A model generated the notes under the pieces. The model had not been told where the DNA came from and did no database searches. It worked only from the letters and a program-made list of their open reading frames with translations. From positions 124,001 through 188,000 of the forward strand of contig NZ_AUJU01000007.1 of the NCBI RefSeq assembly GCF_000424385.1: DNA of 64,000 bases, in the 5' to 3' direction. Below are positions 12,069 to 51,510 of this stretch, piece after piece. Positions within the stretch are counted from its first letter, which is position 1; the number at the start of each line of letters is the position of its first letter. The DNA is from Butyrivibrio sp. LC3010. GTDB lineage: Bacteria > Bacillota > Clostridia > Lachnospirales > Lachnospiraceae. Both the position numbers and the translations under genes were made by a program.

Positions 12069-12098
12069 GCGTATAGTGTGAAAAGCGGAGGAAAAGTC

Positions 12099-13676
12099 TT
12101 GAAACAAAGGGATAAATCAACAGCACAGATAATACATGAGTATGGCAGCGATGTAACTACTTATTATTTGATCGCCATGCTGGCAATTTTGCCGCTATAT
12201 TACAATAACGGATATATCGATATAGCTGATGCAAAATACAAGTTTTACAGGGGAATTACCATTGCATTCCTGGTTCTGGCAGGGGTAATATGCTTTACTG
12301 CTGAAAAAGTCTTTGGCAGGATATTTAAAGAGAAAGTGGCAGGTAAGGGAGCTGAAAAGGGGGATGGCAGAAAGCTAACCTCATATCCGATTCCAATTAT
12401 CCTTATTGCTGCGCATCTTCTATTTAATATGGTAACCTGGCTGTTTTCCGTGGACCGCGATTTATCAATTGTCGGAAACGGAAGCTGGCATATGGGTATC
12501 ATATCTCAGGGGTTGATTCTTTTGGCGGCTCTCCTTGTATACCATTATTTTGAAGATAAATTACTTATACTCATAGCCTTTTCAATAGGTGCGGGTCTAA
12601 GCAGTCTGTTTATTATTCTGAATGGCTTTGACATCTATCCCCTTGATATGGGTAAAAAATTCAATCTTTTTACATCAACACTTGGACAGACAAACTGGGC
12701 ATGTATTTATCTGGCAGTAATGCTGGGCGTAGCCATGGGAATGTTCATCCATGAAAAGGGACTTCTCAGAAGAACTATCGTGGTGATCACTCAGTTGTTT
12801 ATTTTTGCCGGAGCCTGGGAGATAGGAAGCGACACAATTCTTCTTGTTATGGCAGGAGAGTTTTTTGTAATTCTCGGGATATGCATAAGAGAAAGAGAGC
12901 TTATGAAAAGATTCTCAGAGCTTCTTATTACTTTTGGAATCTCCACGAGTGTAGTATATCTTCTTATTTATCATGTATTTACGGGCAAATTTACCTTTGT
13001 TGACGAATATAATGACGGACCCAATAAGCTCCTTAGAACAGGAGTGGGATTTCTGATCCTTGCCGCCGGAATCCTTTTGTATATGGTCATCTATTGCACT
13101 AAAAACAGAGAGTGGAAGGCCGGTATTTTCAAAAATATATACAGGGCATTGGTGGCTATTGGTGCCGTGCTTGTTATAGGGACCATTGCTGCAATAGTAA
13201 TAACCACAAATAATCCTGAAAAGGCAGGGACATTATCAGGAATAGGTCTTTTTAATTTTGATGTACACTGGGGGAACAGGCGAGGAGCCAACTGGAAATG
13301 CGCTGTAATGGCCTTTGGCAGAATGCCGTTTTTCAGACAACTTATCGGAATGGGGCAGGGATGCTATGAGCAGTATCTGAATTCTTTTGAGGATCTCAGA
13401 GTGATAATCGAAAGCGAATTTGGTGAAAAAGCGCTCATGACGGCTCACAACGAGTATTTGAACATGATTGTTGAGAACGGAATCCTGGGATGTTTTTCAT
13501 ATATAGGTATAATTGTGAGTTCTTTTATAATTATGTGGAAAAAGGCAGCAGAAGATAAGCACGCTTTAATGGGGCTTATTGCTGTAACGGGTTATGTGGT
13601 ATGCAGCATGTTCTGCTTCCAGCACGTGTATGGAACTTCGTTTATGTATATGTTCATTGCCATTGCCATGGCTTGA
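12099..13676 (+). CDS. O-antigen ligase/polymerase family membrane protein
   Basis: An integral membrane protein with about 11-12 hydrophobic segments, of the O-antigen ligase (Wzy_C/WaaL-like) type that joins or polymerises lipid-linked glycans outside the membrane. The family signature lies near the C-terminal third: a large loop with GQGCYEQYLNS and then LMTAHNEYLNMIVENGILG, where the H-N-E-Y pattern followed by a helix is characteristic. I place the start at TTG 12099 because GGAGG lies seven bases upstream. A GTG at 12078 would add seven residues and has no ribosome site. First gene of the polysaccharide locus. The exact donor and acceptor are unknown. Confidence 0.85.
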   Translation: MKQRDKSTAQIIHEYGSDVTTYYLIAMLAILPLYYNNGYIDIADAKYKFYRGITIAFLVLAGVICFTAEKVFGRIFKEKVAGKGAEKGDGRKLTSYPIPIILIAAHLLFNMVTWLFSVDRDLSIVGNGSWHMGIISQGLILLAALLVYHYFEDKLLILIAFSIGAGLSSLFIILNGFDIYPLDMGKKFNLFTSTLGQTNWACIYLAVMLGVAMGMFIHEKGLLRRTIVVITQLFIFAGAWEIGSDTILLVMAGEFFVILGICIRERELMKRFSELLITFGISTSVVYLLIYHVFTGKFTFVDEYNDGPNKLLRTGVGFLILAAGILLYMVIYCTKNREWKAGIFKNIYRALVAIGAVLVIGTIAAIVITTNNPEKAGTLSGIGLFNFDVHWGNRRGANWKCAVMAFGRMPFFRQLIGMGQGCYEQYLNSFEDLRVIIESEFGEKALMTAHNEYLNMIVENGILGCFSYIGIIVSSFIIMWKKAAEDKHALMGLIAVTGYVVCSMFCFQHVYGTSFMYMFIAIAMA

Positions 13677-13742
13677 CCAATCTGTGGCTTGTTGATAAAA
13701 TCTAAGTTTGATTAAAACCTCGCAAATTAAGGATAAATATAA

Positions 13743-16124
13743 ATGGAATATATTTTGGGTTTTTTAATAGTCTTTAATAAGTCGCTGGCAGCTTTCGGCC
13801 TGCCTGAACTGATCAGTGTGTTTTCAGTTCTGGTTCTGGCGTGGTATATCATAACCAGAAAACAACAGCTGAAGGGGATAGTTAGAACAACACTGGTTGC
13901 TGTAGTTTATGCAGTGGTGGTACAGCTGATTACGCACACCATGGATTTTCCTGCGACAGGGACGTTTATACTGACTGCGCTTTTGAACATAACCCTTGCA
14001 TCCTGGGTAATTAATAATTTTCAGAAATATGAACAGCATGCCTTTGTTTACAGCGTGGCACTGTGTCAGGGAGTGATGACTCTGGCAGCTTTTATGCTTC
14101 CGGGTTCAGTTTTGTGGAAGGTTGATGAATATGTATCAGGTACTTCCCTTAACAGACTTAAACTCCTGTATTCAGAGCCTTCGTATTTATCCTTTGTATC
14201 AGGAATTGCACTTATTATCTGTGTTTATCAGATTCTTGTATATAAATTGTCCTGGCAAATAGTTCTCGCAGGTCTTATTCTTCTTCTTGATATGTTGCTT
14301 TCTTATGGAATGGGAGGAATGATCTGTCTCGTACTTGCCATATCTGTAATGCTCATGGCACATGTTGCCAAGAACAGAGATAAGATTGTGGCTGATCCTG
14401 CAGCGAAATATAAATGGATTCTTTCCGCCACATTTATTGTGGTTGTGCTGATATCCATCATTGTTATTTCCCCGACTTATGGCTTTAGACTTGCATCCTT
14501 GATCCAGGGAACTGATTTGGGTCTCTTCTATATGATAAAGGAACCGGTTGGAGTATTTTCCGATATCATGAAGGAAACAGGATGGAAGGGAACCGGAATC
14601 GGACAGCTCCTTTATTCAGACAGACTAAGTCAGGCAGAGCTGGTAGAGGGCTTTAAAAATGCGTACTTCTACTTCATGGCAGAGGGTGGAATCGTAGGAT
14701 GTGTTCTGGTACTCGGAATAGTTATTTTCCTTATCGGATATGTGCTTCTTTATGGCGGAATTCTGCCACTTGCACTTTTCATCTATGTGACAGTATACAT
14801 GTTCACAGCAGGAAGATATGACGATCCGGTTAACTGGATTGCTTATGGAATAATACTTGCACATTGCCTGCTTTCAAGGAATGATGCCAGGATTCAGGAA
14901 GACGCTGAACTTGACGATTCAAGGGCAGGAGAGGTAGTAGTCGGTATTATAGGTGCCAAGGGTCTTGGTAATTACGGCGGATATGAGACCTTTGTTGATA
15001 AACTGACAGAATATCATGCTAACAATGTTAAAATAAGATACCTTGTTGCCTGCAAAGCTAACGGCCAGGGAGCAATGGATGAGACTAAGCTTAAGGGTGC
15101 TGTGCCTATCAGTGAAAGTGAGTTTACATATCACAATGCTCACTGCTTTAAGATAAATGTGCCTCAGATTGGTGCTGCTCAGGCGATAGTATATGACCTT
15201 ATGGCAGCAGCTTACTGTATCAGGTATTTCAGAAAACACAGGACTGAGAAACCGATTCTCTATGTGCTTACCTGCAGAATCGGACCTTTTATAGGAATTA
15301 TCGCCAACAAGATACATGAGCTTGGCGGTGAATACTACGTTAATCCAGACGGACATGAGTGGAGGAGATCCACCTGGAAGCCTGCTATCAGAAGATATTG
15401 GAAAATCTCTGAGAGACTGATGATAAAGCATTCGGATCTTGTAATATGTGACAGCAAGAACATTGAGACTTATATAAATGCTACATATGACTCTTATAAT
15501 CCTAAAACAACGTATATTTCATATGGCGCTGAGCTGGAAAAGAGTAAGCTTGCTGATGATGATGCCAAGTATACTGAGTGGATGCACGATCATTCATTAA
15601 ATGAGATTGGCTGGCTTATTGTAGGAAGATTTGTTCCTGAAAATAATTATGAGACAATGATCCGCGAGTATATGAAGAGCGGAAGTGACAGGAATCTTGT
15701 GATAATAACCAATATCAACAAGACCTATATGGATGAGCTGGAGGATATTCTTCACTTCAGCAGAGACAGACGTATAAGGTTTGTGGGCACGGTTTATGAT
15801 AAACAGCTTTTAAAGAAAATAAGAGAAAATGCTTTCGGATACATACACGGACACTCTGTAGGAGGAACAAACCCCAGCCTTTTGGAGGCTCTTGGCAGTA
15901 CGAAGATGAATCTGCTTCTGGATGTGGGATTTAACAGAGAATGTGGAGAAGACAGCGCTCTTTACTGGAGCAAAGAGTATGGAAGCCTGTCATCTCTTAT
16001 CGATAAGGTGGAAAAAATGCCATCCGACGAGATAGAGAAGTATTCCGAGAAGGCCAAGAACAGGATCAGAGAGGCCTATAGTTGGGAATATATCGCCGGA
16101 AAGTATGAGAAAGTCTTCAGGTAA
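13743..16124 (+). CDS. Fusion of a polymerase-like membrane domain and a DUF1972-type glycosyltransferase
   Basis: Residues 1 to about 385 contain about ten membrane segments and a Wzy-like layout (GTGIGQLLYS, then NAYFYFMAEGGIVGC). From about residue 398 a soluble glycosyltransferase begins with GIIGAKGLGNYGGYETFVDKL, the signature of DUF1972 followed by GT4, as in rhamnosyltransferase-like enzymes. It continues with YYVNPDGHEWRRSTW, a nucleotide-sugar region, and HGHSVGGTNPSLLEALG near the end. Both halves look complete, with no frame break or low-complexity join. A protein closely similar to the first half alone is encoded at 26762-27931, so the fusion is a real arrangement of two independent modules. 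It may couple chain growth to transfer of the first or last sugar. Confidence 0.88.
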   Translation: MEYILGFLIVFNKSLAAFGLPELISVFSVLVLAWYIITRKQQLKGIVRTTLVAVVYAVVVQLITHTMDFPATGTFILTALLNITLASWVINNFQKYEQHAFVYSVALCQGVMTLAAFMLPGSVLWKVDEYVSGTSLNRLKLLYSEPSYLSFVSGIALIICVYQILVYKLSWQIVLAGLILLLDMLLSYGMGGMICLVLAISVMLMAHVAKNRDKIVADPAAKYKWILSATFIVVVLISIIVISPTYGFRLASLIQGTDLGLFYMIKEPVGVFSDIMKETGWKGTGIGQLLYSDRLSQAELVEGFKNAYFYFMAEGGIVGCVLVLGIVIFLIGYVLLYGGILPLALFIYVTVYMFTAGRYDDPVNWIAYGIILAHCLLSRNDARIQEDAELDDSRAGEVVVGIIGAKGLGNYGGYETFVDKLTEYHANNVKIRYLVACKANGQGAMDETKLKGAVPISESEFTYHNAHCFKINVPQIGAAQAIVYDLMAAAYCIRYFRKHRTEKPILYVLTCRIGPFIGIIANKIHELGGEYYVNPDGHEWRRSTWKPAIRRYWKISERLMIKHSDLVICDSKNIETYINATYDSYNPKTTYISYGAELEKSKLADDDAKYTEWMHDHSLNEIGWLIVGRFVPENNYETMIREYMKSGSDRNLVIITNINKTYMDELEDILHFSRDRRIRFVGTVYDKQLLKKIRENAFGYIHGHSVGGTNPSLLEALGSTKMNLLLDVGFNRECGEDSALYWSKEYGSLSSLIDKVEKMPSDEIEKYSEKAKNRIREAYSWEYIAGKYEKVFR

Positions 16125-16212: not shown

Positions 16213-16995
16213 ATGAAAATAACAAGAGAAGATATAAAGCTTATCCTAAGCCTTGTAAAAAATGACTTAAAATCAAGATATTCCGGATCAGCGCTGGGAA
16301 TAGTATGGGCATATGTACAGCCCCTTATCACCGTGCTTGTATTCTGGTATGTATTTCAGGTGGGCTTTAGGAATCCCCCGGTAAACAATGTACAGTTTAT
16401 ACTCTGGTTTGTAGCCGGCTATATACCATGGACATTTTTCAATGATGGATTATTGTCATCAACAAATGTATTTTACGAGTACTCCTATCTTGTAAAAAAG
16501 ATGAAGTTTAAAGTATGGCAGCTTCCTATTATTAAGGTTTTATCATCACTTTGCATACATTTGTTTTTGATGCTGTTTGTGATTTTTCTGTATCTGATTT
16601 ACGGATATAAACCGACAATAGCATGGCTCAGCGTGCCATATTATTCATTGTGTGTAATGATGCTCCTTGTGGGCTTGTCTTATCTGGTGGGCGCAGTATC
16701 AGTATTCTTTAAGGATGCAGCACAGCTCGTAAATATCATTTTGCAGTTGGGATTCTGGATGACTCCTGTATTCTGGGCTCCTGAATCAATGAATGCTAAA
16801 GTAATAAAGGTTTTAAGATTTAATCCTCTTTATTATATTTTTGAAGGTAACAGAGATGCCCTTATTGAAGGAAGAGGCTTCTGGCAGCAGTCTCCTATGA
16901 TGACTCTGTATTTCTGGATAGTTGTTGCAGTACTGATTTTACTGGGTATGAAAGTGTATAAGACACTTCGCATACATTTCTCTGATTTACTGTAA
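16213..16995 (+). CDS. wzm: Polysaccharide ABC transporter permease (Wzm/TagG type)
   Basis: An ABC-2 type membrane subunit of 260 residues with six hydrophobic segments. The N terminus LILSLVKNDLKSRYSGSALGIVWAYVQPL is the family signature split over its first helix. GFWMTPVFWAPE and FNPLYYIFEGNRDALI are the conserved loops before the last helices. With the ATPase that follows 73 bases later it forms the exporter that moves a finished lipid-linked polysaccharide across the membrane. GGAG lies seven bases before the ATG. Confidence 0.92.
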   Translation: MKITREDIKLILSLVKNDLKSRYSGSALGIVWAYVQPLITVLVFWYVFQVGFRNPPVNNVQFILWFVAGYIPWTFFNDGLLSSTNVFYEYSYLVKKMKFKVWQLPIIKVLSSLCIHLFLMLFVIFLYLIYGYKPTIAWLSVPYYSLCVMMLLVGLSYLVGAVSVFFKDAAQLVNIILQLGFWMTPVFWAPESMNAKVIKVLRFNPLYYIFEGNRDALIEGRGFWQQSPMMTLYFWIVVAVLILLGMKVYKTLRIHFSDLL

Positions 16996-17068: not shown

Positions 17069-18361
17069 ATGGACGAAATTGTTGTAAAAGCAGACAAATT
17101 AACTAAAGAATATAAGCTCTATGAGTCTGAAATGGACAGACTGAAAGAAGCATTTAACCCATTTAAGAAGAGCTATCATAAATCCTTTTTTGCATTAAAA
17201 AATGTATCCTTTGAGATAAGAAAAGGAGAGAAGGTAGGAATCATAGGCTCTAACGGAGCGGGTAAGTCTACACTTCTTAAGATGCTTACGGAAGTTCTCA
17301 CTGCCACCAGCGGAGAGATGAATATCAACGGTAAAATTGCCGCCCTTTTGGAGCTTGGTGCGGGATTTAACCCCGACTACACCGGTATAGAGAACATCAA
17401 TCTGAATGGAAAACTCCTTGGCTTTTCACAGGAAGAGATGAAGGAGAAGATGGAGAAAATAATAGAATTTGCAGATATAGGAGAGTTTATCAATCAGCCT
17501 GTAAAGAACTATTCAAGCGGAATGTTTGTACGTCTTGCATTCGCTACACAGATTTTCTCAGATCCGGATGTGCTTATTGTTGACGAAGCTCTTTCTGTAG
17601 GTGATATAAGATTCCAGCAAAAATGCTACAGAGCCATGGACAGACTCATGAAGGACAAGACAGTTCTTCTTGTTACTCATGATACTGCAGCGGTTACAAG
17701 GTTCTGCGACAGAGTTCTCTGGCTTGATCATGGCGAACTCAAATTTGATGGAGATGTGGGAGAAGGACTTCAGAAATATCAGGAGTATATCCTTAACAAA
17801 ATCGATGAAGAGAAGAAAAAAGCAGCATACGATGAGGATTATTATCGTCCCGCCAAAGGAAATATATCACTTAAGAAAAACGACAGAGGATTGAACATTC
17901 CTGAAGTAGTAAGTGGAATCAAAAATAAAGGAAATGGACAGGTTACCCTTACTCATTGCGGCCTCTACAATGAATTCTATAAAACTTCCGACGTTTTTGA
18001 GCCAGGAGATGTATTCAGGTTCATTGCCAAGGTTAAGTTTAATGAGATGGCGAACAGACCTATAATGGGACTTGGAATCAGGGACAGACTTGGCAACGAG
18101 GTCATAGGTATAAATACTAATACCATAGGGGTTGAACTTCCTGCTCTTGAGGGAGAAGCCGAGGTTGAGTTTACTTTTAAGCTTCCTGAGCTGAATAAGG
18201 GAGGCTATACCGTCACCGTTGGAATCGCTAACGGATTCCAGGATGACCATGTCCAGATGTGCTGGATGGATGATGTCTGCATATTCAGAGTACCAATGAG
18301 GGAATATGATATCCCCGGAACAATTTACCTGCAGAAGGGTAAGGTTGACGTATATAAATAG
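17069..18361 (+). CDS. wzt: Polysaccharide ABC transporter ATP-binding protein with carbohydrate-binding tail (Wzt type)
   Basis: The ATPase of the exporter. Walker A GSNGAGKST (60-68), signature SSGMFVRLAFA (about 149), Walker B VLIVDEAL (about 167-174) and the switch LVTHD are all intact. Residues about 245-430 form an extra beta-rich domain like the C-terminal domain of Wzt, which in O8/O9a systems recognises the modified non-reducing end of the glycan. Such a domain implies that the exported chain carries a terminal mark. No capping kinase or methyltransferase is recognisable nearby. Directly downstream of the permease. Confidence 0.93.
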   Translation: MDEIVVKADKLTKEYKLYESEMDRLKEAFNPFKKSYHKSFFALKNVSFEIRKGEKVGIIGSNGAGKSTLLKMLTEVLTATSGEMNINGKIAALLELGAGFNPDYTGIENINLNGKLLGFSQEEMKEKMEKIIEFADIGEFINQPVKNYSSGMFVRLAFATQIFSDPDVLIVDEALSVGDIRFQQKCYRAMDRLMKDKTVLLVTHDTAAVTRFCDRVLWLDHGELKFDGDVGEGLQKYQEYILNKIDEEKKKAAYDEDYYRPAKGNISLKKNDRGLNIPEVVSGIKNKGNGQVTLTHCGLYNEFYKTSDVFEPGDVFRFIAKVKFNEMANRPIMGLGIRDRLGNEVIGINTNTIGVELPALEGEAEVEFTFKLPELNKGGYTVTVGIANGFQDDHVQMCWMDDVCIFRVPMREYDIPGTIYLQKGKVDVYK

Positions 18362-18407: not shown

Positions 18408-20645
18408 ATGGGAACAACAAACGACAATGATTCAAACAAGGATTCATTAAAATATAAATTATTTCCGCAGGGATCCAGGAGACTTTTCTTTGCAAAGGTA
18501 ATAAGAAGATGTGTGTTACATCCTGCGTTTATACTGAGCGCGCTTAGTCCGAGACACATTAAGAGCTTTATCAGAACTATTAAAAAGGAAGGCATGGAAG
18601 GTGTTTTCCTAAGATACAGATATGTTGAAGACATCGATGATAACAGAATTGAGAATAAAGGTGTTGTTTTACTTAAAGAGTATAAAATAAAAAAGATTAA
18701 GAAGCTTGAAGGATTGGAACCAATTAGTTTCAACCATTATGATAATCCCACGGTTTCTATAGTTATACCGGTATATAATCAGTTTGATTATACATATCAC
18801 TGCCTGAAATCAATAAAAGAACAGACAAAGAATATTTCCTACGAAATAATTATTGCTGATGATAACTCATTTGACTTTACTACCAGACTTGACGAGGTGG
18901 TAAAGGGAGTAAATCATATAAGGAATAAGGAGAATCTCAGATTCCTCTTAAACTGTAACAATGCAGCAAAACAGGCAAGAGGAAAATATATTCTCTTCCT
19001 TAATAATGACACCCAGGTACTTGAGAACTGGCTTGATGAACTGGTTAAGCTTATGGATGATGAGACTATAGGTATGGTTGGTTCAAAGCTCATATATCCT
19101 ACAGGTTATCTTCAGGAGGCAGGCGGAATTCTTTGGAATGACGGATCAGCCTGGAACTACGGAAACAGAAAGAATCCCAATGGACCTGAGTTTTGCTATG
19201 TGAAAGAGGCTGATTACATCTCGGGTGCGGCTATCATGATCAGGAGCAGCCTTTGGAAAGAGCTTGGCGGCTTTGATGAGAGATTTGTTCCAGCTTACTA
19301 CGAGGACACAGACCTTGCTTTTGAAGTCAGAAAGCATGGCTACAAGGTTGTCTATCAGCCGGCATCAGTTGTTGTTCATTTTGAAGGCGTATCAAATGGT
19401 ACTAACCTTACATCGGGACAAAAGGCATATCAGGTAGAAAATGCCAAGAAATTCTACGAGAAGTGGAAAGATGTTCTTGAAAAAGATCATTTCAAGAATG
19501 GTGAGAATGTCTTTGTAGCTAAGGACAGAAGCAGATACAAGAAGCATATCCTTGTTATAGACCAGTATGTTCCGCACTATGACCAGGATGCAGGCTGCAA
19601 ATGTACATACATGTACCTTAAGATGTTTGTGAAGATGGGATTCCAGGTGACCTTTATAGGTGACAACTTCTATAAACATGAGCCTTATACTACTACACTT
19701 AACCAGCTTGGAATTGAGGTGTTGTACGGAAACTACTACAATAACAATTGGCAGGAATTTTTGAAAGAAAACCTGAAGTACTTTGACTATATATACCTTC
19801 AGAGACCGCATATCTCCATTAAGTACATCGATCTTATAAAAGAGTACTGTGGTGATGCTAAGATAATATATTTCGCTCACGATCTTCATCATATAAGAGA
19901 AAAGCGTGAATATGAGATCACCGGCAAGAAGGAGAAGCTTGCATCTGCTGAAGAATGGAAGAAGATTGAGTACGAATTGTTCTCAAAGGCAGACGTGGGA
20001 CATGTGGTTGGAAGCTTTGAACAGGGAATAATGCAGAAGGCATTCCCGGACAAGCCTATAAGAAATATACCTCTTTATATATATGATGATAAGCCGGAGG
20101 GAATAAGGAAAGACTTCTCTCAGAGACAGGACCTTATGTATGTGGGAGGATTCGGACATCCGCCGAACATAGATGCTGTAATGTGGTTTGGTAAGGAAGT
20201 TATGCCTCTTATCGTTAAGAAGTATCCTGACATTAAGTGGCATGTTGTCGGAAGCAAGGCGAATGAAGAAGTAATGTCTCTTGCCAGCGATAACATAATT
20301 ATCGACGGATTCCTTTCCGATGAAGAACTTGCTGAAATGTATAAGAACACCAGAATAGATATAGTGCCTCTTAGATTTGGTGCAGGTGTAAAGGGCAAGG
20401 TTGTAGAAGCTGCTTACTATCAGATTCCTCTTGTTACCACATCGATCGGTGCAGAGGGGCTTGATGCCACAATGGGAAATATGCATGTTGTGGATGATGC
20501 ACAGGAAATGGCAGATTACATCTGCTCAATCTATGAGGATTATGACAAGCTTCGAGAGATGTCTGATGCAGGCGAGAAGTTTATAGAGCAGAACTTCACT
20601 TCTAAGGCTGCTGAGGATATCCTGAGACTTGATATAGACATATGA
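18408..20645 (+). CDS. Bifunctional glycosyltransferase (GT2 plus GT4)
   Basis: Residues about 113-330 are a GT2 domain: VSIVIPVYNQ, then IIADDNS, ILFLNNDTQ as the metal-binding D-x-D-like site, and GGFDERFVPAYYEDTDL as the acceptor-side motif, in the rhamnosyltransferase-like style. Residues about 380-745 are a GT-B domain with DLMYVGGFGHPPNIDAV and VPLRFGAGVKGKVVEAAYY, the GT4 donor site. The first about 110 residues are basic and may touch the membrane. Such two-domain enzymes often build a repeating disaccharide in ABC-exported polymers, which fits its place after wzm/wzt. Its end overlaps the next gene by four bases. Confidence 0.9.
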   Translation: MGTTNDNDSNKDSLKYKLFPQGSRRLFFAKVIRRCVLHPAFILSALSPRHIKSFIRTIKKEGMEGVFLRYRYVEDIDDNRIENKGVVLLKEYKIKKIKKLEGLEPISFNHYDNPTVSIVIPVYNQFDYTYHCLKSIKEQTKNISYEIIIADDNSFDFTTRLDEVVKGVNHIRNKENLRFLLNCNNAAKQARGKYILFLNNDTQVLENWLDELVKLMDDETIGMVGSKLIYPTGYLQEAGGILWNDGSAWNYGNRKNPNGPEFCYVKEADYISGAAIMIRSSLWKELGGFDERFVPAYYEDTDLAFEVRKHGYKVVYQPASVVVHFEGVSNGTNLTSGQKAYQVENAKKFYEKWKDVLEKDHFKNGENVFVAKDRSRYKKHILVIDQYVPHYDQDAGCKCTYMYLKMFVKMGFQVTFIGDNFYKHEPYTTTLNQLGIEVLYGNYYNNNWQEFLKENLKYFDYIYLQRPHISIKYIDLIKEYCGDAKIIYFAHDLHHIREKREYEITGKKEKLASAEEWKKIEYELFSKADVGHVVGSFEQGIMQKAFPDKPIRNIPLYIYDDKPEGIRKDFSQRQDLMYVGGFGHPPNIDAVMWFGKEVMPLIVKKYPDIKWHVVGSKANEEVMSLASDNIIIDGFLSDEELAEMYKNTRIDIVPLRFGAGVKGKVVEAAYYQIPLVTTSIGAEGLDATMGNMHVVDDAQEMADYICSIYEDYDKLREMSDAGEKFIEQNFTSKAAEDILRLDIDI

Positions 20646-21772
20646 AAATACTACTAATTGATCAAATTGCGAAGGTTAATTATAAATATACCTATAGCCT
20701 GGCTAATGCGTTAAAGACACTGGGCACCGATATAGAGCTCGTCATCGATGATAAGTCTGATAATGAGTATTGTAAGTGCCCTTGTCACAATGCGTTTAAT
20801 ACTTCGAGAAAAGATGTATCAAAACTGGATAAAGTCACCAATTACATAAAATCATATAGATACATTTGTAAAAAGCAAAAAGCAAACAATACGGATATAG
20901 TTCATTTGCAGTGGTTTCAGCTTTCTCCAATGGATTATCATTACATAAAAAGGTTAAAAGCACAGGGCGCCGGAATAGTTGTTACAGTGCATGATATACT
21001 GCCTTTTAATGAGAAATTCTATGACAGATACTATCATGGGAAAATCTATGAGGCAGCAGATGCAATAATTGTTCAGGCTAAGACGAATGTAACCAGGTTT
21101 AAGGAGCTGTTCCCTGAGTGTGCGGATAAAGTTTCATATATCCCACATGGGAATTTCCTTGATTTTGCTGACATTTATGAAAAAGATAAGGCGAGGGAAC
21201 ACCTTGGTATACCAAAGGATAAAAAGGTATTTCTGTTCTTTGGGCAGATAAAAAAGGTAAAAGGTGTTGCAGTTCTTCTTGAAGCCTTTGGGGAGCTGCT
21301 TAAGAAACGTGACGATATATATCTTGCGATTGCGGGAAGCGTCTGGAAGGATGACTTTGGCATATATCAGGAAGTTATAGACAGATACGGACTGACAGAT
21401 AAGAATCTTAAGACTGATATCGGATTCATACCTGATGAAGAAGTGGGATATTACTACTCAGCCTGTGATATTGCCGTTCTGCCATATCTTGATGTATATC
21501 AGAGCGGAGTTATTCAGCTCTCATATGCATATAAGAAACCTGTAATAGCAACCAATATTCCGGCATTTACCGAAATAGTTAAGGACAGAGAGACAGGTTA
21601 CGTCTGCGAGGCAGGAAATGCTGGTAGCCTTATGGAGACTATGGAAAGAACTATTGAAGACGAGTCAAACTGGAGAAACGTTGGCATCGCAGGGGCTGAT
21701 CTTATACGAGAGAAGTACTCCTGGGAAGATATTGCTGAGAAGATAAGTAAGGAATATAGTAAAATCAGATAA
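20642..21772 (+). CDS. Glycosyltransferase family 4 protein
   Basis: A GT-B fold enzyme of 376 residues. VVTVHDILPF, AIIVQAKTNVTRFKELFP, KVSYIPHGNF and KVFLFFGQIKKVKGVAVLLEAF are in family order. The donor site reads ADIAVLPYLD-like (CDIAVLPYLDVYQSGVIQLSY), where the usual E-x7-E is changed. ATGA overlap with the bifunctional transferase shows coupling. It ends the transcription unit that began near 12.1 kb; a terminator follows at once. Confidence 0.87.
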   Translation: MKILLIDQIAKVNYKYTYSLANALKTLGTDIELVIDDKSDNEYCKCPCHNAFNTSRKDVSKLDKVTNYIKSYRYICKKQKANNTDIVHLQWFQLSPMDYHYIKRLKAQGAGIVVTVHDILPFNEKFYDRYYHGKIYEAADAIIVQAKTNVTRFKELFPECADKVSYIPHGNFLDFADIYEKDKAREHLGIPKDKKVFLFFGQIKKVKGVAVLLEAFGELLKKRDDIYLAIAGSVWKDDFGIYQEVIDRYGLTDKNLKTDIGFIPDEEVGYYYSACDIAVLPYLDVYQSGVIQLSYAYKKPVIATNIPAFTEIVKDRETGYVCEAGNAGSLMETMERTIEDESNWRNVGIAGADLIREKYSWEDIAEKISKEYSKIR

Positions 21773-26761: not shown

Positions 26762-27931
26762 ATGGAATATTTGTTGGGGTTATTACTCGTTTTTAATAAT
26801 AGTTTGAGTGCACTTGGGTTAAGCGGCACACATCTTCTATACATTTTCTCCGGAGCTATTCTAATATGGTATGTATTTAAAAGAAGCATGCTTGTAAAAA
26901 GTATTGGTGAAATATTTCTGTTTTTTGTAGCATATGCTTTGATTAGCCATTTTATCACCGGAGCGTCTGATAAAACAGCTATAGCAGTCTTTCTGATTCA
27001 CACCTTATTGAATATTACATTAACTATATGGGTAATTAATGAGCTTGAACATTTGGATATTGAAAAGCTTGTTTTTGTTGGAGCCATCCTACATTTTATA
27101 CTATGGGTTATTGCGTTATTCACACCGGGATCATTACTATGGCAGCATGCAGAATACATGACTGGAACAAAGGCGATGAGGTTAAAACTGCTATATAATG
27201 ATGCAGCTGAACTATCTGTTGTTTGCGGAGTGTTTCTCTTGTTATGTGTATATAGATTAGTGCATAAGATTAGCTGGAAAATAGTAGTGTCCAGTGCAGT
27301 TTTTCTTCTGACAATGTTCCTATCATATGGAATGACAGGAATCATCTCAGTTGCAATAGCAATGTTAATACTATTATTTGCTTATATTTCAAATAATAGA
27401 AACCAATTAGCCAAGGATTTTAAGTCAAAAATAAAATGGATCAGTATTATGACTGTGGCTTTGGCGATAATACTCACAATTGCTATGCTCTCTCCAATCT
27501 ATGGATTAAGAATTGGAAATTTATTCATGGGAACAGATACAGCAATGGCGTTTGAGATTACAAATCCCTTTAGAGCATTTATAGAGGCTATGCATGTTAC
27601 TAATTGGAGAGGCGTTGGGTTTGGGGGGCTGTCAATTTCTGGAGTCGGGAATGTTATTGGATACAGCCGCCCAATAAAAAACTCATTTCTTAATGTTATG
27701 ATAAATGGCGGTGCATTAGGCGTATTGCTTGTAGTAGTGTTAGTAGCGTTTTTGATAATTATGTGCCTGTTTTATGGCAATGTGCTGAATGTGGCATTTT
27801 TGACATATATTTTGATTGTACAGATTGTGCTGGGGACATTTGATGGACCTCTAAATTGGTTCGTATATGGACTTATTTTGGCTGATTGTATGAAAACGAG
27901 AGCAGTGTTAGAAGAAAAAAGGTACTATTAA
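26762..27931 (+). CDS. Polymerase-like membrane protein, free-standing paralogue of the fusion protein's N-terminal half
   Basis: About 389 residues and ten hydrophobic segments. It matches the first 390 residues of the fusion at 13743 along its whole length: MEYLLGLLLVFNNSLSALGL against MEYILGFLIVFNKSLAAFGL, then MRLKLLYNDAAELSVVCG, SYGMTGIISVAIAM and NWRGVGFGGLSIS. It stops where the glycosyltransferase begins in the fusion. ATG 26762 aligns with the paralogue's start and has AAGGA upstream; an ATG at 26729 would add 11 residues. Probably a Wzy-type polymerase or related glycan-handling protein. Confidence 0.8.
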   Translation: MEYLLGLLLVFNNSLSALGLSGTHLLYIFSGAILIWYVFKRSMLVKSIGEIFLFFVAYALISHFITGASDKTAIAVFLIHTLLNITLTIWVINELEHLDIEKLVFVGAILHFILWVIALFTPGSLLWQHAEYMTGTKAMRLKLLYNDAAELSVVCGVFLLLCVYRLVHKISWKIVVSSAVFLLTMFLSYGMTGIISVAIAMLILLFAYISNNRNQLAKDFKSKIKWISIMTVALAIILTIAMLSPIYGLRIGNLFMGTDTAMAFEITNPFRAFIEAMHVTNWRGVGFGGLSISGVGNVIGYSRPIKNSFLNVMINGGALGVLLVVVLVAFLIIMCLFYGNVLNVAFLTYILIVQIVLGTFDGPLNWFVYGLILADCMKTRAVLEEKRYY

Positions 27932-36221: not shown

Positions 36222-36294
36222 ATAGGTCTTAAGGAAATATAGTAAATGCAATAAAAGTGTGCTATTTCAAAGTATGATTGGAAGGAACGAGCAT

Positions 36295-39069
36295 ATGAGA
36301 GAAAGATTAGTATCTTGGACTGATTATTTATATATTGGCATAGCATTTGCTGTTTTGCTTTCGATGAAAGATGAGTACAGAGATGGCTTTCTAGAAATTA
36401 TTCTAGTAAGCCTCTTTTTTGTAGTTACAGGGTTAAAAAATAATATTAGTAATTTATTTGCTTTTATTAAAAAGCATTCGATATTCGCTGTGTTGACAGT
36501 AATGTGGATGCTATATTTTTTGTTTATTGAACATGCTTCTAATATATCTTACAGGTATTCACTATCCATTTTTTTTATTGTATTTGCTGGATATAGTATT
36601 GCAGTTTCGACAAAAGGGGAGTTGACTGTCGTATTTAATAGACTATGGATGATTCTTTTTGTGACTTTATTGATTGGGACTTTGGATTATTTTGTAGTCC
36701 ATGATTTTTCTGACAGAATGCATATGGCATTTTTGCATCCTATTGCTGAAGGAAATGCGGCATTGGTATTGGCATTTGTTTCATTATTCTATGTTAAAGA
36801 CAAAAGGAAAATGATTGCTGGAACGATATTGTCAGCATTAATAATGATAATTGCTCAATTAAGGCATGTTTCTGCTTTATTATTAGTTTTATTGGTGATT
36901 TTTGTGGTTATAAATTGGCATGGAATTAAAGCCTTTTTTTGGAATAGTGTGCTACATAGTATTAAGGGGCGTATCATGTGGAGCATATTGTTTCTTCTGC
37001 TAGTCATTTTGGTATTATTTATATCCATTAAAGGTACTACTATTGAGGTTATTGAAAATCTAATAAATAGATTTGCAGTTATGTTTGCAGCTATAAATAA
37101 AGATGTTTATCTAAACTATTATGGTGACAAGGGATTTAGGAACAGAGTAGCTGACCTTGATTTTGCAATAAATGTGTGGAGAAATGGAAATCTTCAACAT
37201 AGTATATTTGGAGGGGGGATGCTATACACATATAGTATAATAAAGCCTCTTGCAGCATTGTTCCTTGGTATAACTGGTGATACTGCAGGTCCGGTAGAAA
37301 ACTCTTTTATATCACTTTTGTCCGACTATGGAATGGCTGCTTTTATTCTATATACAAGCTGTTTTATCTCTGCTATTAGCACTTCCATAAAATCAAAGAT
37401 AAAATCAGTCCGTACAATTTCATTGTTAGTGGCTTTTATAATGCTAGTAAGCGCTTTCTCAGACATGATTTATTGGATAAATATAGCGTTTCTAATTTTT
37501 GTTTTGATAGGTGTATACCTAGGAGAGTTAGCGGAATATGGAGAAACCAGGGCATTATATCCTGCTCTTGTTTTTGCATTCCTGCTTTCAATATTTATCT
37601 ATGCTTTACCAATTACTTATTTATGGCTAAGAACAGCAATAATGGTAACTATGGACAACATAGGTGTAATGGCAACAATGCTTGTTTTATTTATCACATT
37701 TGCAGTTGTATTGATTATTATTTGGAGTATAAGTTTTCTTCTAGTTTCATTAGTGTTTGATAAAAGAATTATAAAATCCAATGCTGTCACAGTAATCATA
37801 AGTACAGTAGCATTATTGCTGTTGCTTACTTGTGGTATGTTTGAAATAATTGCAGCAAAAAAATATGTAATCCCAAGAATCAATGATGAAAAGGAAGTAT
37901 TAACGACAATAGTAGAGCATGCTGATGGCGAAGTTTATAATGATACTTATCCTTACCTTTATAATAAAGAAATAGGAGGAATAAAGGCATCAATATTTAG
38001 TGGGGCTTCGCTTGGTGCACAGAGCAATACTACGGTTATAATGGATGTCAAGGATGAGGCTCAGGTACTTATAAATGCCGGGTTCTTATACACACCTATA
38101 TCTGAGACTGATGTGGTATATACAAATGATGACGCTGTTATTAAGGTGTTAGAGGATAGAGGGCATCATCTTACTGGTTACTGTACTAATGAGTATGCCG
38201 TTGATTTGGACGATTTAGCTGCGGCCAATGGCCTTGGTAAAGCAGATGATGGAGCTGTTATCATAGATGGTCAGGATCAGAATATAGAAAATGGAATTAT
38301 GATTGAAATCTATCCAGGTAAATATACCGCGACATACGAATTGGTGCTTAGAGATAATAATGCATATGTTGACGACTATCAGGTTTGCACAATTAAACTT
38401 ACGTTAGGAAAAGATAAAGAGAGTGCAAGTGAAGTGATATCTACACCAGTTATGCGAAGTGAGTTTGATGAAGCCGGGAAATTATCTAAATCGCTTATCT
38501 TTCAAGCAGGTGCGGTTGACTACAATTATCTTTTGGTTATGGATTCAAATGACAGTTTGGAACTAAGATCTATAAAATATAGAAGAACTCCTGATTTTGA
38601 CACTCGCCGTGAGTTGAACAACAATTATAAAGTAATTCAAGAGGAGTATTTTGATTTGGAAGGTAAACCCATAGTTATTGCAAATGGGTATCATGGAGCT
38701 AATTTTGAATACAAGGATCTGGGATACTGGACATCATGTAGTTTTTTTGATTTGAATTTTAATCCAATTGCGTCAATAAGCGGTGCTGCTAAAATAGAAA
38801 GAGAATATGATGAGGCAGGAAATATAATCGTTGAAAGATACTATGATGTGGAAAACGATCCGATTCTCAATTATGGAGAGTATTGGTATATTGTCAGAGC
38901 CTACAATGATAAACGACAGGTAATACATGAAGAGTTTTATGGACTTAATAATGAGCTGATATTAAGACCGGATGGCTACTGTAGCATTGATATACGTTAT
39001 GATGAGACAGGGGCTATTGCTGGTAAGACATATTATAATCTTGATGGAGAGATTGTAAATGAAGAATGA
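36295..39069 (+). CDS. Polymerase-like membrane protein with large C-terminal YD-like repeat domain
   Basis: 924 residues from ATG 36295 (AAGGA eight bases upstream). Residues 1 to about 520 hold some 13 membrane segments with an O-antigen-polymerase layout, related to the 318-residue protein at 21863. Residues about 525-780 are a soluble, probably extracytoplasmic region. From about 782 to the end come repeats of the type EEYFDLEGKPIVIANGYHG, then REYDEAGNIIVERYYDVEND, then IRYDETGAIAGKTYYNLDGE. These resemble YD/RHS-style repeats often seen in surface proteins of rumen Clostridia. Whether the repeat binds glycan or wall is unknown. The join is in frame, with no break. Confidence 0.82.
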   Translation: MRERLVSWTDYLYIGIAFAVLLSMKDEYRDGFLEIILVSLFFVVTGLKNNISNLFAFIKKHSIFAVLTVMWMLYFLFIEHASNISYRYSLSIFFIVFAGYSIAVSTKGELTVVFNRLWMILFVTLLIGTLDYFVVHDFSDRMHMAFLHPIAEGNAALVLAFVSLFYVKDKRKMIAGTILSALIMIIAQLRHVSALLLVLLVIFVVINWHGIKAFFWNSVLHSIKGRIMWSILFLLLVILVLFISIKGTTIEVIENLINRFAVMFAAINKDVYLNYYGDKGFRNRVADLDFAINVWRNGNLQHSIFGGGMLYTYSIIKPLAALFLGITGDTAGPVENSFISLLSDYGMAAFILYTSCFISAISTSIKSKIKSVRTISLLVAFIMLVSAFSDMIYWINIAFLIFVLIGVYLGELAEYGETRALYPALVFAFLLSIFIYALPITYLWLRTAIMVTMDNIGVMATMLVLFITFAVVLIIIWSISFLLVSLVFDKRIIKSNAVTVIISTVALLLLLTCGMFEIIAAKKYVIPRINDEKEVLTTIVEHADGEVYNDTYPYLYNKEIGGIKASIFSGASLGAQSNTTVIMDVKDEAQVLINAGFLYTPISETDVVYTNDDAVIKVLEDRGHHLTGYCTNEYAVDLDDLAAANGLGKADDGAVIIDGQDQNIENGIMIEIYPGKYTATYELVLRDNNAYVDDYQVCTIKLTLGKDKESASEVISTPVMRSEFDEAGKLSKSLIFQAGAVDYNYLLVMDSNDSLELRSIKYRRTPDFDTRRELNNNYKVIQEEYFDLEGKPIVIANGYHGANFEYKDLGYWTSCSFFDLNFNPIASISGAAKIEREYDEAGNIIVERYYDVENDPILNYGEYWYIVRAYNDKRQVIHEEFYGLNNELILRPDGYCSIDIRYDETGAIAGKTYYNLDGEIVNEE

Positions 39070-42791: not shown

Positions 42792-44627
42792 TTGAAAAAG
42801 GCTTTGGTTCAAAAAAATGAAATAATAGTTTTACTGGGAGTTTATTTAGCGATAGTAGCATTGCTCAATTTCTCTTTGAGATACGTGTTTTGTCCTGTGT
42901 ATGGAGATATCCTTTTATACACTGATGAGGCAAGGTCTCTTGCAGATTCCGGTACATTCAAATTTGCAAATACTTATGGGACCAGCGGAGCTTATGTATA
43001 TCCATTTATTATTTCATTTATTTATAAGTATTTTTATAATAGTTATAATATAGTTGATATGACGAGATTTTTGGGAATTGTTTTGATGACAACCACAATT
43101 TTTCCTGCATATCTACTTTTAGGGAAGATGAAGATTTTCGGCAGGAAAAGAGTTATTCTGTCAATTGCTTCAGTGGTTATTCCGGATATGCTTCAGTCAT
43201 GGTTACAGGTTACTGAAGTTATAGCATACCCTTTATTCATTTGGACCTTATTGCTATTTTATATAGATATTGAGCAAAAAGATAAGTTAATTACAACGGT
43301 TGGTATGGCACTTATTTGTTTCCTTGATTATTTAACAAGGGGACAATATCTGGTAATTGGTCTTGCATATATTTGTACATTATCAATATTTGTGTTACAG
43401 GAATTATTATCGAAGGGTAAGCCTGCGGTATTTTTAAAAAAACTTGGTGTGTTTTTAGTTTTATTTGCAGGCCTTTATATAGCTGTTCCTAAGGTGCTTA
43501 CTCAGTTACATGTTATTGCTGATACCGAAGATATGGGTGGCTCGTTTTTATCTGAAAGTATACAGAAGATACTTGAAAATCCGTCTTATTTCCTTGTTCA
43601 ATGGGGAAAAGGATTCTTTTGGTATGCATTCTTTATATCATTGGCATTTGGATTTGTTACAGTGCTTGTTCCGGCTTTTTACAGATCTTATGAAGATGAA
43701 ATTTGCAACAGATTAGTTGTTTTTGTAAATGCTATATTTCTTCTTACGCTTGCAATTGTTGTATTGATCATATATAGCATGGAAGAACCGCTGGAATATG
43801 ATACACACAGAATCCATCAGAGATATTTTTTCTTCTTGTTCACTCCTTATTTATATCTGTTCTACAGGATTGATTTTAGTAGATTTAAGTTTGGGAAGAT
43901 TCGTACTTTAATCATGGCTATATTCATGATTTTTATTGCTTTCGGAAGATTTATTTTTCAGCTAAGAGAAAACTTCTATCTTGGTGTTGAGTCTATAGCG
44001 CTTACTGCGTTTAGAATTGCAAAAGAAAAAATTACCATAGAGCCAAGATTAGAATATGTCTACACTATTGGTACTTTATTATTTTTAGGTATAGTATTTA
44101 CTCTTATTAAGGCAAAAGGATGGGTCAATTTTTCCAGGATAATATATCCAGTACTGTTTGTTGTAATTATTGCATTTAATACAAAAATATATACGGATAG
44201 ACAGATCTACATTACAGATACAGCTATGCATGATTATAGTAATCGATATGGTCATGCCGCGGATTTTCTTAAGGACTTCAATACTGGAGAGGTCGTTGCT
44301 ATAATAAACGAGTTATGTATTGACAGTGAGATACAGACTTTTCAGGTAGTTAATAAAAAATGTCTGGATGTAATAAGTATTGCGGAGTTAGATGCTCTAT
44401 ATGAGGAGACTCCGGGCAAGCTCAATATTAGAGAATTTGACAGGTTAGGTTATTTTTATTATAAACCGGATAAACATAGAGTGCTGTCAGATGCAAATTA
44501 TGTAGTAGTCCGTCGTGGTTATTTAAAAAATAAGTATAAAATTCAGAATGAAAAAGTCTATAAAGACGATTATTTTGTGATATATAAACTCGATGATGGC
44601 TATCTTAATGTCAATAAAGTAGAGTGA
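42792..44627 (+). CDS. GT-C type membrane glycosyltransferase (GT39/ArnT-like)
   Basis: 611 residues with about 12 membrane segments and a soluble C-terminal part. The first outer loop carries GDILLYTDEARSLADSGTF, where the acidic D-E pair is the catalytic mark of GT-C enzymes that use polyprenyl-phosphate sugars. GTSGAYVYPFIISFIYKYF follows as in the PMT/ArnT group. The next genes are a DPM1-like GT2 and a DUF2304 protein, which fits a set that makes polyprenyl-P-sugar and transfers it outside. Start TTG 42792 is preceded by GAGGAG and AAAGGA. Confidence 0.8.
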   Translation: MKKALVQKNEIIVLLGVYLAIVALLNFSLRYVFCPVYGDILLYTDEARSLADSGTFKFANTYGTSGAYVYPFIISFIYKYFYNSYNIVDMTRFLGIVLMTTTIFPAYLLLGKMKIFGRKRVILSIASVVIPDMLQSWLQVTEVIAYPLFIWTLLLFYIDIEQKDKLITTVGMALICFLDYLTRGQYLVIGLAYICTLSIFVLQELLSKGKPAVFLKKLGVFLVLFAGLYIAVPKVLTQLHVIADTEDMGGSFLSESIQKILENPSYFLVQWGKGFFWYAFFISLAFGFVTVLVPAFYRSYEDEICNRLVVFVNAIFLLTLAIVVLIIYSMEEPLEYDTHRIHQRYFFFLFTPYLYLFYRIDFSRFKFGKIRTLIMAIFMIFIAFGRFIFQLRENFYLGVESIALTAFRIAKEKITIEPRLEYVYTIGTLLFLGIVFTLIKAKGWVNFSRIIYPVLFVVIIAFNTKIYTDRQIYITDTAMHDYSNRYGHAADFLKDFNTGEVVAIINELCIDSEIQTFQVVNKKCLDVISIAELDALYEETPGKLNIREFDRLGYFYYKPDKHRVLSDANYVVVRRGYLKNKYKIQNEKVYKDDYFVIYKLDDGYLNVNKVE

Positions 44628-49125: not shown

Positions 49126-51510
49126 TTATTTAGTTATTTTCTGAGATGCTCCGGAGATTCCTTTGCTCTTAAGAATCTTCTTATAATTCTTTAGATTACT
49201 TTTCGGAACAACAACCTTAGCTTTGGCGTTTATCTTTTTAAATGCGTTCTTACCGATGGAGTTCTTAGTAAGTGAGGTTGTTTCTATTTTAATCTTCTTA
49301 AGCTTCTTGCATCCGTAGAATGCCTGTTTGCCAATTCGCTGGATATTTTTTCCGATAACGATTTTCTTAATGTTCGTGTTGTTTTTGAATGCGTAATCGT
49401 TGATGTCGGTAACAATATATACATTGTTATCGATTGTGATGCTTTCAGGAATGGTAATCTCTTTTGCGAACGGAGCTGATGTTGAAGTATATATTACACT
49501 TCTGCTACCTTCATCTGTTGAGATGATGCTGTAAGTTGCATTTGTTATGACATCCTGAACTATGTCGCCTGCTTTGTGAGATGGTGCAGCATTTTCGATA
49601 GTTTCAGATTTAGTGTCTTTTGTACCTGAATTTTTGCTCTGCGAATTCTTGTTTTGGTTATTTGATCCTGTATTATTACTGCGTTGATTCTGAGGTTGCG
49701 TTGAGGCGAGTTTTACCCATTTTGCATAAAGAGTAATGGATGCATCCTTGTTGTAGAGAGCTCCGGGATTATAATCAACCCTTGTTGATGTTTTACTGGT
49801 ACTCCAGCCGGCAAAGCTATAGCCACTTCTTGTTGGTTTAGCAGAAGCTAAAGTTACAGCATTTTTATAGTATTTAATCTGAGATGAAGGAGCACCTGAT
49901 CCGCCGTTAGCATCATACTTAATGGAATATTCTGCAGGAACGAATTTCCAGGTCTGATTAGCTTGAATTGTATCGCCATTATAAGGCCACTGTTGTACAT
50001 TTGTTCCATTGGAGGTGCCGGAACCTTCAACGTCTACACAAAAACCGCTGCATCTTGGTATGAGTGCATAGCCGTTTCCAGAGTGTATGATTGCCCACTG
50101 CTGAGCAATTGATCCATTTGCATCGTGCACACATACATTTGCCTGGTAAGTGGTAGAAGCACCATATAAATCTAGAACTTTTCCTGAGGCAGCATGAGTA
50201 AGTTTGTAATAGCCGTTACTTAGCTTTTCTACATCGAAGGAATTGAATTTGCTTGGGCAGTTATCGTTCCAAACCCGCACATTAGTGGGATTAGGAATAT
50301 TTCCTGTATCTCCGACTACATCCAACTCGATATTGTTTGCTATTGCACTAGTTAAAATGTATCTCCCATTCTGTATCGGCTGTGATGGATTATAAGGAAT
50401 GAATACCCATGATTGAGCATTACTATCATTTCCTACATACTGAGTTACATTTGTGCCATCTGCGATGGTTCCATTTGAGATATCCAGGGAATAGCCACTG
50501 CATTTTGACTGTATACGATATCCGTTTCTTCCATTGGTAGATATTGCCCATTTCTGATTATCGCCGCCGTGGCTCTGATGAACCTGTACATTTGTTCCTG
50601 CAGCGGCGCTGGCTGCATACACATCTAATGCTGCGTCTGATCCAAGCTGAGTAATGGTATAAAAACCACCTTCATATTTGATATTCCATGCATCGTGTGT
50701 AGGCACATCCATGTTGTCTACATGCCACAAATTTACATTTTCACCATTGCTTGCAGGAACTGCACTTCCTGCAATATCAAGATAATAGGAAGGATCAGCT
50801 GCAGCGGCTATGATATAGTTTCCATCAGGAAGGGTTCTGTTATAGCCAGATGCCATAGCACTGCCTGTCGGTACCGGAGGAGCTGGAGACTCAGCGGTAA
50901 AAATTCTGATTTTATCATATTTGGTAAGGTTGTAACCGCCGGCTTTTGTTGTTACTTTCTGAACGCCGTATCCTGAATCATCAACCCACAATTCACCTGA
51001 TGCTCTTGTTCTTTCTTCATCAACATAAGTAAAGTGATTTGTTCCACAAATTACGACAAGATATCCGTTTCTGGAATAGTTTATTATTGTCTGCCTTCTT
51101 TGCTCATCTCCTCCGGATAAGCTTACGTAATTATGTTGTACTACAGTTTTTCCCAAGACATTTCTTGCATAATCCGGTGGAGTTGTTCCAATTGGACTAT
51201 ACTCATTAACATTGCTAAGAGAGACAACCTTATGGTTTGCAGCGCACCATTCAAAGAGTCTGTCAGGATTGAAATTTGGATCATTTACAAGTCCTGTAGC
51301 TTTGAGAAGCTTTGCATAAGAAACTATTCGGCATCCGCCACTTCTCATGGTTGCGTAATCGGATTGCTTCTGTTTCCAGTTTCTCCAGTCTGTTCCATAC
51401 GAAGCAGCCTTTGCAGTTAAGGATGAGAAAATTAGAATAAGCGAAAACAATAGTGACATGAAAAACACTCTGAGAAACGATTTCTCAGAATTAGAACTAA
51501 GATGTGACAT
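49126..51510 (-). CDS. Secreted multidomain protein: C39-like peptidase, ricin-type lectin, InlB-type repeat and BspA LRR
   Basis: 794 residues. A signal peptide (about 11-36, ending AKA-A) is followed by a papain/C39-like domain with SGGCRIVSYAKLL (Cys60), TNHFTYVD (His159) and LWVDDSG (Asp177 or 178). Residues about 224-525 hold two ricin-type beta-trefoils with repeated QKWAI/QSWVF/QQWAI/QTWKF motifs. Residues about 530-600 are a Listeria-Bacteroides (Flg_new) repeat, YDANGGSG to TLYAKW. A Gln/Asn/Ser linker leads to BspA-type leucine-rich repeats (KKIVIGKNIQRIGKQAFYGC) at about 650-794. It is probably exported to bind glycans and cut peptides or isopeptides at the surface. It has its own promoter and terminator. 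Confidence 0.88.
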   Translation of the reverse strand: MSHLSSNSEKSFLRVFFMSLLFSLILIFSSLTAKAASYGTDWRNWKQKQSDYATMRSGGCRIVSYAKLLKATGLVNDPNFNPDRLFEWCAANHKVVSLSNVNEYSPIGTTPPDYARNVLGKTVVQHNYVSLSGGDEQRRQTIINYSRNGYLVVICGTNHFTYVDEERTRASGELWVDDSGYGVQKVTTKAGGYNLTKYDKIRIFTAESPAPPVPTGSAMASGYNRTLPDGNYIIAAAADPSYYLDIAGSAVPASNGENVNLWHVDNMDVPTHDAWNIKYEGGFYTITQLGSDAALDVYAASAAAGTNVQVHQSHGGDNQKWAISTNGRNGYRIQSKCSGYSLDISNGTIADGTNVTQYVGNDSNAQSWVFIPYNPSQPIQNGRYILTSAIANNIELDVVGDTGNIPNPTNVRVWNDNCPSKFNSFDVEKLSNGYYKLTHAASGKVLDLYGASTTYQANVCVHDANGSIAQQWAIIHSGNGYALIPRCSGFCVDVEGSGTSNGTNVQQWPYNGDTIQANQTWKFVPAEYSIKYDANGGSGAPSSQIKYYKNAVTLASAKPTRSGYSFAGWSTSKTSTRVDYNPGALYNKDASITLYAKWVKLASTQPQNQRSNNTGSNNQNKNSQSKNSGTKDTKSETIENAAPSHKAGDIVQDVITNATYSIISTDEGSRSVIYTSTSAPFAKEITIPESITIDNNVYIVTDINDYAFKNNTNIKKIVIGKNIQRIGKQAFYGCKKLKKIKIETTSLTKNSIGKNAFKKINAKAKVVVPKSNLKNYKKILKSKGISGASQKITK

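Follow-up and report, generated by a model that had tools for sequence, protein, structure and literature searches.

Assembly of a surface polysaccharide starts in the cytosol and ends outside the cell, and the enzymes of the two ends are usually treated as separate, with a diffusing lipid carrier as their sole link. The question raised by the locus described here is whether the two ends can be held in one polypeptide. A 793-residue reading frame, carried by the rumen-type bacterium Butyrivibrio sp. LC3010, joins a membrane module to a glycosyltransferase, and it was analyzed within a stretch of 64,000 nucleotides that is referred to throughout as the window. The features of the locus are compiled in Table 1.

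Table 1 Features of the locus in window coordinates
Feature	Position	Strand	Basis
Separate ligase-like membrane protein with His motif AHNEY, immediately upstream of the fused gene	12078..13676	+	PF04932, 35.9 bits (cut-off 31.7)
AAGGA, possible ribosome-binding site, 9 bases 5' of ATG	13729..13733	+	Sequence only
Fused gene, 793 aa: WaaL-fold membrane module and Cps2T-type rhamnosyltransferase	13743..16124	+	ORF, domain matches
N-terminal module, residues 1-388, twelve predicted membrane helices, predicted WaaL fold	13743..14906	+	Models, profile comparison
Lys305 codon, column of the essential His in Wzy_C proteins	14655..14657	+	Alignment
C-terminal half, residues 398-792, DUF1972/GT4, Cps2T-type beta-1,4-rhamnosyltransferase	14934..16118	+	Pfam/NCBI profiles, model
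Wzm-type ABC exporter permease	16213..16995	+	PF01061, 73.1 bits
Wzt-type ATPase with Wzt_C domain	17069..18361	+	PF00005, PF14524
GT2-GT4 glycosyltransferase	18408..20645	+	Pfam
GT4 glycosyltransferase	20642..21772	+	Pfam
Membrane module encoded as a separate, free-standing gene (389 aa)	26762..27931	+	39% identity to fusion residues 1-379

Organization of the fused gene

Both halves are read in one frame. A scan of residues 340–440 for ATG, GTG and TTG (rare starts such as ATT lie outside it) found no in-frame start between residues 353 and 440 in the window fusion and none between 372 and 440 in its homologue from a second Butyrivibrio genome (G024). With its beginning near residue 398, the glycosyltransferase half thus lacks a usual start codon for itself. 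The homologue is a 798-residue fusion, 67% identical over residues 1–792, and the fusion is therefore not an assembly accident. A contig search of the named collection returned one relative, Butyrivibrio sp. NC2002 (contig NZ_JNKZ01000004.1), which is not counted as an extra copy beside the G024 fusion; among plasmid records 59 match P0001, and none of them covers 80% of it. That the gene yields two proteins or that the fusion is an assembly error has next to no probability: a AGGAGAGG stretch can be read close to the junction, but between it and residue 440 the frame is free of ATG, GTG and TTG, for which reason separate translation of the glycosyltransferase half was rejected, and the second genome carries the same fusion. 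The fusion is confirmed as real.

As an observation apart, the 243-kb plasmid pNP243 of Butyrivibrio fibrisolvens D1 (L183, NZ_CP146964.1) carries a locus of capsule type that encodes Cps2T, a Wzz-type protein, a CpsD-type kinase, an LCP protein and a flippase.

The glycosyltransferase half

Residues 400–792 match the Cps2T profile NF046071 at 546 bits (cut-off 500) over profile positions 4–384 of 384, and residues 400–597 match DUF1972 (PF09314) at 239 bits (cut-off 25), which bears out the complete cytosolic DUF1972/GT4 enzyme that an earlier note on this DNA had placed at the C terminus. This half has both the DUF1972 domain and a GT-B fold, its best matches among solved structures being GT-B transferases with GlgM first. 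It was modelled by AlphaFold2 with high confidence; the full chain reached a pLDDT of 83.9 and a pTM of 0.58, and at that pTM the placement of the halves relative to each other is not predicted.

According to the report on GacB, a DUF1972 protein of Streptococcus pyogenes, this enzyme adds a beta-1,4-linked rhamnose onto GlcNAc on undecaprenyl pyrophosphate; four catalytic candidates were mutated (positions 126, 160, 182 and 222), and changes of Asp160 or Tyr182 abolished activity (PMC6802508). These positions were mapped through a Lactococcus Cps2T: Asp, Asp, Tyr and Glu of the Lactococcus protein would fit the four mutated positions given one two-residue shift, and its alignment yields Asp536, Asp570, Tyr594 and Glu633 as the putative counterparts in the window fusion, the fit of Asp570 and Tyr594 needing two inserted residues. 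The four residues tested in GacB are apparently kept, and Tyr594 is unchanged throughout alignment A2 with its 32 rows. Sugar specificity of this half is what we infer, and a rhamnose-containing product is likely; RmlC and RmlD (dTDP-rhamnose) are encoded in the genome on a different contig, and their presence only makes the rhamnose donor possible.

The membrane module

Four copies of the module are known, namely those of the window fusion, the free-standing gene, the G024 fusion and a 772-residue protein with a different GT4 in a third genome (G021). Identity to the window module is 57% for G024, 30% for G021 and 38% for the free-standing copy, which was already pointed out in the earlier note at 26762 (Table 1). 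A profile of the four copies found the module in 3 of the 79 genomes of the genus, and one weak partial match (G357, E 2.8e-4) was obtained outside it in the family sample of 397 genomes. The same note had described a ten-helix Wzy-like module; the assignment to the Wzy/ligase superfamily has held, but the helix number has not, as both AlphaFold2 models give twelve helices (nine by a crude hydropathy scan). In the module model a large external loop lies between helices nine and ten, and the C terminus would be cytosolic, in line with where the positively charged loops lie.

Searching the solved structures by sequence returned no match for P0001 (E ≤ 0.01) or the module profile (E ≤ 1), and fold comparison was therefore needed. 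The AlphaFold2 model of the module alone, built from four sequences (mean pLDDT 80, pTM 0.81), had WaaL chain 7tpg_B as its only Foldseek match at E < 0.001 (8.9e-4), and VIA-align against this chain gave a Z of 21.5 over 333 residues at an rmsd of 4.7 Å, compared with 12.6 for the best FtsW chain. Against Wzy_C (PF04932, cut-off 31.7 bits) the window fusion and the G021 fusion score below the cut-off at 18.5 and 25.1 bits respectively, the G024 fusion gave no match at E ≤ 0.1, and the free-standing copy has no Pfam match at E ≤ 1.

In profile comparison the module matched a Wzy_C set of 31 rows at 97.5% and 94.2% in two runs, while the Wzx, GtrII-like, acyltransferase and Wzm control sets and the reversed Wzy_C set reached at most 1.4%. 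The Wzy_C set consists of 29 proteins drawn from 30 genus loci plus P0003 and P0005 (P0005 being also among the 29), each locus being represented by whichever frame on its listed strand had the most helices. The set also matched the ligases of genus g121 at 97.4% and the module of a further fusion (G494, below) at 48.0%, with both of which the module profile itself gave no match (0.8% and 0.2%). From these profile comparisons it can be deduced that the module is a far branch of the WaaL/Wzy_C superfamily.

Genomic surroundings

The genes that follow the fusion encode a Wzm/Wzt ABC exporter, and an ABC exporter route requires no polymerase. A polymerase is thus not expected in the membrane half, and by analogy a ligase-like role would be more natural beside Wzm/Wzt. 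The earlier proposal of a polymerase is abandoned here, given the missing His discussed below and a flanking exporter whose ATPase carries Wzt_C, and the alternative voiced alongside it, in which the membrane part is perhaps no polymerase at all, is the better fit. The flippase and chain-length regulator that accompany a polymerase in the Wzx/Wzy arrangement appear to be absent from beside the fusion: the only flippase-like gene in the window lies at 46556 (PF01943 28.8, cut-off 28.2), and no chain-length regulator family was found among the 39 distinct window proteins scanned, a subset of its ORFs. Wzm and Wzt occur near Cps2T in six of the 13 Butyrivibrio genomes in which Cps2T was matched strongly (E < 1e-100), that is, in the window and in five of the twelve others (G024, G070, G027, G046, G069), as read in stretches of 16–20 kb, the G061 stretch lying mainly on one side.

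Other features of the window deserve mention in their own right. Five Wzy/ligase-like membrane proteins are encoded within 21 kb (12078–33078, +), starting at 12078, 13743 (the N-terminal half), 21863, 26762 and 31894; the PF04932 cut-off is exceeded by just two of them, at 12078 and 31894, and that at 21863 was assigned by similarity to a Wzy_C protein of G024. A 794-aa protein (49126–51510, −) has ricin-type lectin, Listeria-Bacteroides repeat and leucine-rich repeat matches, and two large proteins of 936 and 611 aa (36259–39069 and 42792–44627, +) have no Pfam family at E ≤ 0.0001.

Comparable fusions in Lachnospiraceae

Among the 13 strong Cps2T genes of the genus, two are fused to the WaaL-fold module, three to a four-helix module (G076, G072, G061) and one is joined with membrane helices and GT26 (G008), the other seven being free-standing; three of these seven follow a gene above the Wzy_C cut-off (G070, G027 and G046, that of G046 being short). 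DUF1972 matches better than 1e-50 were found in 49 genomes of the family sample with five frames longer than 500 aa, namely the window fusion, G198, the four-helix fusions of G457 and G082, and a frame in G448 where no membrane helix was seen. DUF1972 occurred in 5 of the 299 genomes of the phylum sample, the window's being the only long frame. Two variants were observed in passing: the G008 protein (L035:8520-11129, +) is an 869-residue chain of three parts, in which membrane helices are joined to a GT26 of the WecG/TagA type and to a Cps2T domain, and G024 holds a second Cps2T copy with a four-helix module, split into two overlapping frames (L033:9010-10658, −), with more short Cps2T remnants near it.

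A Wzy/ligase-like membrane module followed by a cytosolic glycosyltransferase was also seen in other proteins. The G198 fusion (927 aa) carries such a module and Cps2T at 518.8 bits, in a genus where the Cps2T half was found at E < 1e-100 in 6 of 31 genomes; the G499 fusion (1002 aa) has Cps2T at 499.6 bits, just below the cut-off of 500; and the G494 fusion (812 aa) has a different Wzy-like module and Cps2T at 516 bits. The modules of these three have no Pfam match, and their place in the superfamily therefore depends on profile comparison, weakly so for G494. Other partners are met in G021, whose GT4 scores 41 bits against the window glycosyltransferase and up to 462 against other GT4s, in G015 (845 aa; Wzy_C 32.5 bits, cut-off 31.7, with a GT4) and in G490 (L169:2300-4894, −; 864 aa), where a sub-threshold Wzy_C match of 19.8 bits precedes an alpha-2,8-polysialyltransferase-like domain (32.2 bits, cut-off 23.3). 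In G500, the ligase-like and Cps2T genes keep the order of the fusion as two genes with 3 bases between them. Since modules and partners differ, several fusion events are likely, their count being an estimate, and from several different fusions together with an unfused adjacent pair in the same order it can be argued that the starting and ending enzymes work together physically.

The earlier note knew of no described protein with this order. No description of a Wzy/WaaL-glycosyltransferase fusion was found in the openly licensed literature, an absence that is weak evidence for that reason; the order itself is not unique, as the comparable fusions in other Lachnospiraceae demonstrate. Both halves belong to known families, and what is new is an architecture, recurrent in one bacterial family, and not a type of system.

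Several long proteins encountered in the search were set aside as other kinds. These comprise GT26-GT4 long frames (L080-L085; by eye), one of which shows just one hydrophobic stretch; a pair of proteins, 785 and 809 aa long, in which no helix was predicted (L078, L079); the G448 frame of 573 aa (L087), whose 540-aa ORF has no membrane helix; ligase-like proteins with charged or beta-propeller tails (L160-L168; the L160 tail by Pfam, the rest by eye); ligase-like proteins of 763-878 aa (L124, L126-L128, L130; by eye); and Wzy-like proteins that carry a long tail or have the module twice (L123, L129, L041; by eye). Some are of interest in themselves. G198 encodes a ligase-like module with a large tail that has LVIVD/beta-propeller matches (L160:5866-10086, −; 1406 aa), and G483 a ligase-like module with a large tail (L161:2303-6598, +; 1431 aa) as well as a similar module/tail pair as two abutting genes (L161:11957-15888). 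A Wzy-like protein of 1129 aa in G016 has a long, repetitive C-terminal tail (L123:1810-5199, +; by eye), and one of 1067 aa with 17 predicted helices in G008 resembles two Wzy-like modules in one chain (L129:2733-5936, +).

Role of the membrane half

Tentatively, with a probability of roughly 0.45, we favor a fusion that physically couples the first committed step inside the cell to the outside handling of the same lipid-linked chain. The cytosolic half would, like GacB, commit a sugar carried by undecaprenyl pyrophosphate through the addition of rhamnose, after which the neighboring transferases would extend the chain and Wzm/Wzt would export it. The twelve-helix half, presumably located with the exporter, would bind lipid-linked chains of this kind at the outer face and hold the starting enzyme where the chain re-emerges, beside the His-bearing ligase encoded immediately upstream, for which it may position the chain. 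Coupling is favored by the Cps2T/DUF1972 scores and apparently kept residues of the glycosyltransferase half, the predicted WaaL fold with its Wzy_C profile match and near-zero controls, the conservation of external positions at the level of membrane ones (counts below), the adjacent exporter here and in relatives, the G500 gene pair, the further fusions and a described Gram-positive rhamnan system (below). Against it, the membrane half is less conserved than the glycosyltransferase half between the window and G024 homologues (57% versus 77% identity), the module is rare in the genus, the G021 relative lies in a Wzx-type-looking locus (its neighbors, named by eye, resemble a phosphoglycosyl transferase and a flippase of the Wzx type), and the full-chain model leaves the mutual placement of the halves unpredicted. 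Moreover, as Cps2T occurs on a four-helix module, with GT26 or free-standing, a ligase-like partner is not generally needed.

The active-site column also weighs against coupling, and against an enzymatically active membrane half. The His of Wzy_C proteins is essential in WaaL and in Wzy-beta, which was not restored by a His300Arg variant (PMC4815439), and a catalytic His with three arginines was proposed for PglS from the WaaL structure (PMC12800693). In the corresponding column (His457 of P0003) H is found in 23 of the 31 Wzy_C rows, D in 6, E in 1 and S in 1, whereas three of the four module copies show K and the remaining one P, the window fusion having Lys305; the window's P0004 has F. Even so, the membrane half could be a ligase or polymerase that acts through residues other than His, so that one polypeptide would start a lipid-linked rhamnose chain inside and link or release it outside. 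The WaaL fold, the external residues invariant in the four copies (Asp68, Glu129, Arg138, Arg249, Asp258) and a free-standing copy with no glycosyltransferase to anchor are in keeping with this, as are the other fusions, whose modules have H in this column in G198, G499 and G490 and D in G494 and G015 (P in G021). With the Lys or Pro of the four copies and a His-bearing ligase-like gene immediately upstream, such catalysis on both faces seems doubtful to us. If true, the repeated joins in Lachnospiraceae would mean that the start and the end of glycan assembly are physically one machine.

Loss of the His would suit a ligase relative that has lost catalysis and only holds the glycosyltransferase at the membrane, and the four-helix modules on the same glycosyltransferase (G076, G072, G061, G457, G082) and the membrane association of GacB itself (PMC6802508) point the same way. 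Among the four copies, however, 24 of 118 positions outside the cell are invariant, as are 41 of 242 in the membrane and 3 of 28 in the cytosol (raw counts), and external positions thus appear as conserved as membrane ones, which argues against a mere anchor; in addition, the module also occurs without a glycosyltransferase, and twelve helices far exceed what an anchor needs. We consider a pure scaffold unlikely. A membrane half that senses the exported chain and regulates the glycosyltransferase, an option raised in the earlier note, is very improbable: only the domain order speaks for it, and no sensor domain or regulatory motif was found in the Pfam/NCBI profile scans.

The favored coupling can be approached experimentally, as the fused proteins offer a fixed 1:1 stoichiometry, one gene and a known linker. 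Since the module has lost the ligase His, it also provides a test, set up by nature, of activity in a WaaL-fold protein that lacks this residue.

Comparison with known systems

Likeness to GacB/Cps2T extends over the entire C-terminal half, which lies above the NCBI equivalog cut-off and has Asp, Asp, Tyr and Glu at positions that would fit the four residues tested in GacB. Known GacB/Cps2T proteins stop where the extra module of the window fusion starts: the N terminus of GacB is only short and hydrophobic (PMC6802508), whereas the window fusion has a twelve-helix module there. With WaaL and Wzy_C (PF04932) proteins the module shares its predicted fold, helix number and profile similarity, and it differs from them in that the fusion falls below the Pfam cut-off, has no His at the essential column and carries a C-terminal glycosyltransferase.

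The S-layer glycan cluster of Geobacillus is a Gram-positive system with rhamnose transferases in which Wzm/Wzt export a rhamnan and the last transfer is predicted to fall to WsaB, a Wzy_C protein; unlike in the window these are separate genes, and WsaB acts on an S-layer protein (PMC2943079). Also comparable are the fusions of G198, G499, G494, G021, G015 and G490, which share the order of a Wzy/ligase-like membrane module and then a cytosolic glycosyltransferase, and differ from the window fusion in the module (G198, G499, G494, G015, G490) or in the glycosyltransferase (G021, G015, G490).
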